Part shown: positions 24,133 through 26,162 of the stretch, piece after piece
Position numbering within the stretch: the stretch's first letter is position 1
Layout: each line of letters starts with the position of its first letter
Assembly: GCA_945861755.1 (NCBI GenBank)
Contig: CAMAVQ010000005.1
Span: forward strand, 1-64,000
DNA from: Gemmatimonas phototrophica
GTDB lineage: Bacteria > Latescibacterota > UBA2968 > UBA8231
Reading direction: 5' to 3'
DNA length: 64,000 nt
Position numbers and translations under genes: made by a program
Notes under the pieces: model-generated
Database searches by the model: none
Told to the model about the DNA's origin: nothing
Seen by the model: the letters and a program-made list of their open reading frames with translations, nothing else

Positions 24133-25563
24133 CTATCCGGCGCGGTACCCTTTGATTCCTCTATAGATGGTCTGGGTGCTGACCTTGAGGATACCGGTAA
24201 AGGGCACGGCGATCAGCATACCCATGATCCCCAGCAACTGGCTGCCGATGGACACTACCAGCATCACCAACAGCGGATGCAGGTCCACACTCTTGGCGAC
24301 GATGAGCGGCTGCACTACGAGATTGTCGAGCATCTGGATGATCGCAAAGGCGACGATGACATACAGAACCATGGTGCCCCCTCCACCGGTGCTCAGGGCC
24401 ACCACCGACGCAGTGATACCGCCGATCAGGGGCCCCAGGTAGGGGATCACGTTGGCCATGCCAGCCATCAAGCCGATAGGGATGGCGTTGGGCAAGCCGA
24501 TGATGGTGAGGGCAATGACGGAGAGCAAACCGACGATGGCGGTCTCCAACATCTGGCCGCGCAGGTACCCGCCTATTTGGCCGTTGATCTGGTAGATGAG
24601 ACTCAGGCACAGTTCAAAGTAGGCGTTGGGAACCAATTCGATCAGCTCGTGTGTGATCCTTCTGCCTTCCTTCAGGAAGAAGAACACCGCGAAGGGAACG
24701 ATGACCAGTAAGGCCAGACCCGAGAAAACCCCTTCCATAAAAGCACTGGATTTACCCACTAGGGCGTTCATCATCTCCCGCCCCTTCTCGTTGACCAGGG
24801 CCTCAAGGTCCACATCGGCCCCCAAGTAGGACTGCACCGCCGGTTGCATGCCGCTTGCAACTTCGCTCATTTGGGTGATGATACTTGGACCTGCCTTGCC
24901 AAAGTCAATGCCCCCCACTGAGAATTCCAAGGGCTGGGTGTCTGCTTTATGCAGGTATTCGCCCTTGGACCAGAATTCCTCTTCTTCTCCGGCCGCATTA
25001 CCGCGCACCTTGATTTCGAAGGGAGTCCTCATTTCGGACGAAGCAAAACGCAGGATGCCCTCTGCCGGTTCAGTGCTCCTCGGGCTGAAGCGGATTTGGA
25101 AGACCTGCTTGGCCCCTGGGGCCAACTCGACCGGAAAATTCGGCGGGTCCACCAGGGCAAAACGTTTGCCGGGACGCATCCTTTTCCACATCGCGTCCAC
25201 CGAAACACTTTCCTCCCCGGTGTTGGTGAGCGTAAACTCCCTGACCACCGTCGCCTGGCGCAGAAACTGCTCGGTGATATCCATTACCTGATCGGTGAGC
25301 CGTTTGCCAACCGTGAAAAAGCCGAGTACCGCGACCAGGCCAATGGCTGCGAAGATCAGCCCGATGCTGGCCCCCCTGCCCAAGCCGCGGCCTTCCATCC
25401 GATCAACCAGGGGGTTGAGGACATAAGAGACGATGAAGGCGATGACAAAGGGGACGAGGATTTCGCGGATGGCGTAGAGAAACCAGCCGACTCCCAGCAG
25501 GACGAGCAGGGCCAGCAGCATCTTGACCAGGCGTGCCCAACTGAAATTCTTGTCCTGATTCAT
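24133..25563 (-). CDS. AI-2E/PerM-family transporter with inserted Ig-like (ASH/DUF1573-type) domain
   Basis: A 476-residue membrane protein. Residues 10-30, 33-55 and 64-85 are the first membrane helices, and the C-terminal half has the AI-2E family core (GQMLETAIVGLLS, IPYLGPLIGG, GIMGMLIAVPFTGILKV). Between the third and fourth helix groups, residues about 103-190 read as a beta-sandwich of the ASH/choice-of-anchor-D type: REFTLTNTGEESVSVD, FPVELAPGAKQVFQIRFSP, AEGILRFASS, PFEIKVRGNA. Family members of this kind are usually near 350 residues without such a domain. The domain should face outside the membrane. Substrate is unknown. It is 11 bp downstream of the cyclic-nucleotide-binding gene. 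Confidence 0.82.
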   Translation of the reverse strand: MNQDKNFSWARLVKMLLALLVLLGVGWFLYAIREILVPFVIAFIVSYVLNPLVDRMEGRGLGRGASIGLIFAAIGLVAVLGFFTVGKRLTDQVMDITEQFLRQATVVREFTLTNTGEESVSVDAMWKRMRPGKRFALVDPPNFPVELAPGAKQVFQIRFSPRSTEPAEGILRFASSEMRTPFEIKVRGNAAGEEEEFWSKGEYLHKADTQPLEFSVGGIDFGKAGPSIITQMSEVASGMQPAVQSYLGADVDLEALVNEKGREMMNALVGKSSAFMEGVFSGLALLVIVPFAVFFFLKEGRRITHELIELVPNAYFELCLSLIYQINGQIGGYLRGQMLETAIVGLLSVIALTIIGLPNAIPIGLMAGMANVIPYLGPLIGGITASVVALSTGGGGTMVLYVIVAFAIIQMLDNLVVQPLIVAKSVDLHPLLVMLVVSIGSQLLGIMGMLIAVPFTGILKVSTQTIYRGIKGYRAG

Positions 25564-25574
25564 GGGGGCAGTGC

Positions 25575-26162
25575 TCAGGTATTGGTGGAGGTGGGATTGC
25601 CGATTACTCCAGTTTCGGCCCGTTCCTGCCCTTCCTTCAACTGGCGCTCGGCCAGCAGGACCCGCTCCCGGGCCTCTTTGAGCAACCGGTTGGTCTGGCG
25701 CAATCGGAAGGAAATCATCTGGGACAAACGCATGATCACCTTGAGTCCCGTACGGGGGTTACGGTCGATAACTTCGAGCATATCAGGCCGGAAGAAACCG
25801 ATGGCTTGGCAGGGTTCGAGCGCCAACGCCGACGCCGTGCGGGGGGACTCGTCGAGCAAGGCCTGTTCGCCGAAGAAGTCGCCTGGACCGAGGGTGGCTA
25901 AGATGGTCGACTGGCCCTCTGTACCAGCATGGAGGATCTGGACTTGCCCGGAGAGGATAATGAACATGCCAACGCCTTTCTCCCCCTCGCGGACGATAGC
26001 CTCACCGGTGGCAAAGTTCCGATGGTGGAGGATGTCTTCGATCTTGGCGAATTCCCGCTGGTTGAAATCCTGGAAGATGGGAATCCGCTGCAATACCTCG
26101 AAGAGGGTTTCCTTCTTTTCTTGCTGATGGTTGAAGAGTCTGCCCCAAAATGGATCAGCCAT
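25575..26162 (-). CDS. Cyclic-nucleotide-binding-domain protein with C-terminal coiled coil
   Basis: A 195-residue protein with a CAP-like cyclic nucleotide-binding fold from about residue 20 to 140. The phosphate-binding cassette is recognisable as GDFFGEQALLDESPRTAS, including the Glu and Arg that hold a cyclic nucleotide. There is no helix-turn-helix; instead the last 55 residues (SFRLRQTNRLLKEARERVLLAE) form an amphipathic coiled coil. It is probably a regulatory partner, perhaps of the co-transcribed AI-2E-like transporter. ATG at 26162 is chosen; two GTG codons directly before it are alternatives. Confidence 0.8.
   Translation of the reverse strand: MADPFWGRLFNHQQEKKETLFEVLQRIPIFQDFNQREFAKIEDILHHRNFATGEAIVREGEKGVGMFIILSGQVQILHAGTEGQSTILATLGPGDFFGEQALLDESPRTASALALEPCQAIGFFRPDMLEVIDRNPRTGLKVIMRLSQMISFRLRQTNRLLKEARERVLLAERQLKEGQERAETGVIGNPTSTNT

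Follow-up and report, generated by a model that had tools for sequence, protein, structure and literature searches.

The known system closest to the transporter considered here is the AI-2E family (also PerM or UPF0118; PF01594), with TqsA of E. coli (PDB 7nb6), which is described as an elevator-type pentamer and whose deposited structure contains five identical chains. To our knowledge, the substrates and the control of AI-2E proteins are largely unknown. The ASH fold is best known from cilia and centrosomes, and its canonical repeats open with a strand whose end usually reads DFGxV. Membrane proteins gated by cyclic nucleotides are represented by the CNG and HCN channels. Links to Na+/H+ antiport (PMC7221264) and, from genetic work, to envelope phenotypes (PMC9876793) have been described for other members of the AI-2E family.

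We analyzed two neighboring genes in a window of 64,000 nucleotides of Latescibacterota DNA. Their features are as follows.

24133..25563, minus strand: gene of an AI-2E-family transporter, 476 aa, with an inserted Ig domain (PF01594 in two pieces; Foldseek match to TqsA)
24886..25254, minus strand: the whole insert, residues 104-226, from TM3 to the helix before TM4 (alignment with non-insert orthologs)
24997..25254, minus strand: predicted ASH/HYDIN-type Ig body, residues 104-189, strands within 106-188 (AlphaFold, Pfam, NCBIfam, PDB profile search, and Foldseek)
24886..24939, minus strand: tail TQPLEFSVGGIDFGKAGP, residues 209-226, proposed displaced first ASH strand (near-invariant residues, strands, and permutation scores)
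25575..26162, minus strand: partner gene, a 195-aa cNMP-binding protein with a charged C-terminal tail (PF00027, 88.6 bits; adjacency)
25830..25874, minus strand: phosphate-binding cassette FGEQALLDESPRTAS of the cNMP domain (alignment of partner proteins)

The transporter and its insert

The frame that the sequence-only reading gave, 24133-25563, is confirmed; it lies on the minus strand and encodes 476 residues, and its product matches AI-2E_transport (PF01594) with 197.7 bits (Pfam cut-off, 34.3). The match is split in two pieces, profile positions 3 to 103 and 115 to 325, which flank the insert and confirm the earlier proposal that a standard AI-2E transporter is interrupted here. TqsA (7nb6) was the best Foldseek match of the whole AlphaFold model (mean pLDDT, 75; pTM, 0.56), with an E value of 4.3e-7, a TM-score of 0.63 by target length, and an rmsd of 6.8 on superposition; it was followed by ciliary central-apparatus proteins, HYDIN, VesC, and CEP192. 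The same family is common elsewhere, as a profile search found AI-2E proteins in 13 of the 14 control genomes.

Alignment places an insert of ~120 residues between membrane helices 3 and 4. This stretch of the protein takes up 168 residues, compared with 44 to 50 in the AI-2E paralog of the same genome (contig C16) and in non-insert orthologs from other Latescibacterota families. These proteins without the insert rule out that the region is part of the ordinary AI-2E core fold, an outcome that the sequence-only reading had named as contrary to it. The motifs quoted in that reading are present and the insert is real, but its extent had been put at residues ~103-190; by alignment it is longer, covering residues 104-226, because the linker and the conserved ...IDFGKAGP tail also belong to it. 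The linker, which joins the Ig body to the tail, varies widely in length.

Structure prediction had been suggested as a check on whether the region holds only helices. AlphaFold gave seven strands between residues 106 and 188, both in the whole protein and in the insert modeled alone (pLDDT, 76; most strand blocks, 84 to 93), and Foldseek returned the same Ig-type set for the insert alone as for the whole model. The predicted strands and the superposition on HYDIN (2e6j; rmsd of 2.3 to 2.4 over 87 columns) correspond to a seven-strand PapD-like sandwich. When scanned alone, the insert of the 24133-25563 protein matched Cep192_D4, ASH, HYDIN_VesB, and choice-of-anchor D models, all below the curated cut-offs (Pfam and NCBIfam), and that of a relative (L012) passed Cep192_D4 with 36.6 bits (cut-off, 35.5). 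Among the 27 inserts scanned singly, Cep192_D4 was found in 15 and HYDIN_VesB in 10 at E<=0.01. A profile of all 27 matched the solved structures of Hydin (E value, 1.6e-22) and CEP192 (E value, 2.9e-6) in the PDB, and a profile of the insert body retrieved 60 repeats of large repeat proteins from genomes outside Latescibacterota. DUF1573 (PF07610) remained below its cut-off (11.7 to 15.5 bits versus 26.1). Of the ASH/DUF1573-type label first given to the domain, the ASH part is supported by predicted fold and profile matches, and the HYDIN/CEP192-type models fit better than DUF1573 does. Predicted fold and profile matches together support the insert as an ASH/HYDIN/CEP192-type Ig domain between membrane helices.

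Arrangement, spread, and placement of the insert

A first strand with the DFG motif is missing on the N-terminal side of the insert. A stretch of the DFGxV-strand form, LEFSVGGIDFGKAGP, occurs instead on the C-terminal side, beyond the linker of variable length, and alignment of the orthologs' inserts shows near invariance of F221, G222, and P226. AlphaFold predicted short strands at residues 212-214 and 218-220, even when the membrane part was left out; it also gave isolated bridge residues at 103 and at 224 or 226. When the tail was placed in silico at the front of the insert, the HYDIN_VesB score rose by 2 to 6 bits in four of the five inserts used, and the match reached further towards the profile start; the fifth insert matched no ASH model in either arrangement. 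When the moved tail was compared with 100 shuffled tails, roughly half of the 27 sequences, which are related and not independent, had at most 5 shuffles that beat it, and L019-L025 had no gain from the moved tail. There is thus moderate support for a circular permutation in which the first ASH strand has been displaced to the C-terminal end of the insert. Such a permutation would bring the two ends of the domain side by side, and this would permit insertion into a loop.

The search for the same architecture in related genomes, proposed with the original interpretation, was successful, with 33 intact orthologs carrying the insert in four Latescibacterota families (f1, f2, f4, and one member of f3); two named relatives are Candidatus Latescibacterota. 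Within Latescibacterota, the orthologs of families f5, f6, f7, and f10 lack the insert, as do those of a second phylum (40 genomes covered; most frames of 342 to 390 aa), and the joined architecture was not found in ~320 other sampled genomes, where matches cover one half only. On a core tree built without the insert columns, its presence needs one change (support, 65/88), which is compatible with a single gain, at modest support. For the insert body, the dN/dS values that could be estimated were 0.12 to 0.36, in most cases higher than for the core, and by these ratios the insert is under purifying selection while its body changes faster than the core. Outside the phylum, two AI-2E proteins of family f90 (L061:2573-3925 and L062:2379-3737) have ~65 extra residues in this loop, which form a different and apparently helical insert. 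The AI-2E frames of L005:4001-5388 (G054) and of L046 (G037) are interrupted close to the insert, through sequencing error or gene decay.

Three hydrophobic segments precede the insert in the 24133-25563 protein, and net positive charge is found at the N terminus, in the TM2-TM3 loop, and at the C terminus. In an AI-2E protein of Halobacillus, the N terminus is cytoplasmic by PhoA fusion and the C terminus is outside (PMC7221264). Because of the three preceding segments, the charge pattern, and the cytoplasmic N terminus of the Halobacillus protein, we consider that the insert is probably extracytoplasmic, in the loop between TM3 and TM4. We propose that the transporter of one Latescibacterota lineage acquired its ASH-type Ig domain in this loop, probably in a single event. 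If the protein is a pentamer, five Ig domains would ring its outer face, an arrangement that follows only by analogy with TqsA, and the ring could be a docking or stabilizing surface for an envelope partner. The sensing or docking role that the sequence-only reading gave to the loop is likewise a hypothesis.

The cyclic nucleotide-binding partner

The gene that the sequence-only reading placed 11 bp upstream of the transporter is indeed at that distance. PF00027 is the sole Pfam match of its 195-aa product (88.6 bits; cut-off, 27.5), and Pfam found no HTH in it, the C-terminal element of CRP/FNR proteins. The cassette FGEQALLDESPRTAS is intact in the alignment, with Glu and Arg. The source genome codes for a second protein of the same subfamily (L070:2347-2904, on G000:C3), which is not beside an AI-2E gene.

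The link that had been suspected between both genes is supported well beyond this locus, as the pairing is phylum-wide. A cNMP gene lies directly upstream of an AI-2E gene, on the same strand, at 45 Latescibacterota loci (median start-stop gap, -4, typically an overlap of 4 bases), including loci without the Ig insert, and coordinate comparison showed that all 31 cNMP matches of the second phylum adjoin AI-2E. The nine best cNMP matches outside the phylum, from seven families, all adjoin AI-2E, and five weaker ones do not; the pairing is found outside Latescibacterota in the second phylum (31/31 genomes) and in six further families. The conserved pair spans several phyla independently of the Ig insert, with members at the locus under study (24133-26162), at L041-L051 and L056-L064, and in the second phylum. 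The pair is also kept while the flanking genes change: the order in family f1 is thioredoxin, cNMP, AI-2E, a cold-shock-domain gene, and clpX, and a one-contig f4 genome has a recO-like gene, cNMP, AI-2E, and a valS-like gene in succession (recO-like and valS-like were assigned by eye). At L064:1959-4800 (G081), the pair is followed on the same strand by two more short cNMP-domain frames.

Since the pairing occurs at loci without the insert and in the second phylum, its distribution in the genomes makes it older than the Ig insert, and we therefore keep the two features apart. The partner would be a cytoplasmic CRP-like receptor, with a cNMP domain and no DNA-binding domain, translated together with the AI-2E transporter and most likely acting as its cyclic-nucleotide-responsive regulatory partner. 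Here regulation is what we infer from the pair, as adjacency is no proof of it. Of the papers searched, none mentioned AI-2E and cyclic nucleotide binding together, which does not prove novelty.

With respect to the ligand, the source genome encodes class III cyclases, which, like the intact cassette, favor a cyclic-nucleotide link. In a subclade of genus g3 (L019-L025), the cNMP cassette is altered, with RPAS in all members and FGA in five, and there is no class III cyclase match, or one weak match (G043); as this is one clade, the coincidence counts as one event. The genomes of family f4 mostly have no class III cyclase matches and their cassette is intact, so the presence of cyclases is rejected as a full predictor of the cassette, and the ligand may come from a source other than class III cyclases.

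Alternative readings and comparison with known systems

An assembly or frame artifact could account for the insert, as the broken frames of G054 and G037 might suggest, yet 33 relatives, one-contig genomes among them, carry it in one open frame. This conservation leads us to reject the artifact, whose probability we consider negligible, and together with the fold and profile matches it excludes chance. A more serious alternative is that the Ig domain is a structural passenger, in which case an outside loop tolerant of insertions acquired a domain common in bacteria, which has no specific partner and serves only to stabilize the protein or to keep it at a distance from the envelope, the cNMP pairing being a separate matter. 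The faster evolution of the insert body relative to the core, the highly variable length of the linker, and the different insert at the same place in the two f90 genomes agree with this idea, whereas the retention of the insert in almost all members of four families, under purifying selection, and the near invariance of its fold residues count against it; on balance, we find it possible but rather doubtful.

As both genes are encoded side by side, the insert could also be the docking site of the cNMP protein and hence cytoplasmic, with both features forming one system. We disfavor this as very unlikely, since other families and a second phylum have the gene pair but no insert, and the three membrane segments before the insert and the cytoplasmic N terminus of the family also speak against it. 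The family name and the fold match to TqsA would fit an ordinary AI-2 quorum-signaling exporter with an added sensor domain. LuxS, however, was absent from all 64 Latescibacterota genomes searched and was found, as expected, in 5 of the 14 control genomes. AI-2 export is therefore unlikely, and we reject the quorum-signaling exporter as highly improbable.

The reading that we prefer is a two-gene, cyclic-nucleotide-linked AI-2E transporter module to which one lineage has added an extracytoplasmic docking or stabilizing ASH domain, and we give it about an even chance. More tentatively, the module may represent a widespread, undescribed transporter under second-messenger control, with a free cNMP receptor as regulatory subunit across several phyla and a permuted outer ASH ring added in Latescibacterota. 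If true, the ring and the receptor would allow control of the transporter from both sides of the membrane. Of both findings, the conserved cNMP-AI-2E pairing is more consequential than the architecture of the insert, and its near constancy offers a testable handle on how one large AI-2E branch may be regulated. The insert, which belongs to a lineage of uncultured bacteria, puts the ASH fold within a multi-pass transporter and may illustrate how a domain can become suited to insertion into a loop.

Compared with AI-2E/PerM/UPF0118 proteins such as TqsA, the 24133-25563 protein has the same membrane core, profile, and fold, and differs by the Ig insert of ~120 residues after TM3, by its cNMP partner gene, and by coming from a phylum in whose searched genomes no LuxS was found. 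The insert shares its predicted fold and the N-x-G, F-x-P, and DFG motifs with ASH/HYDIN/CEP192 and bacterial choice-of-anchor D repeats, but it is single-copy, lies inside a multi-pass membrane protein, and apparently has its first strand at the C-terminal end. The partner has the cNMP domain and phosphate-binding cassette of CRP/FNR-type proteins (PF00027), with a charged tail where no HTH was found and a tie to a transporter gene. Last, the proposed principle is that of the CNG and HCN channels, a cNMP domain controlling a membrane protein, with the difference that here the putative receptor is a protein of its own and the membrane component belongs to an unrelated transporter family.
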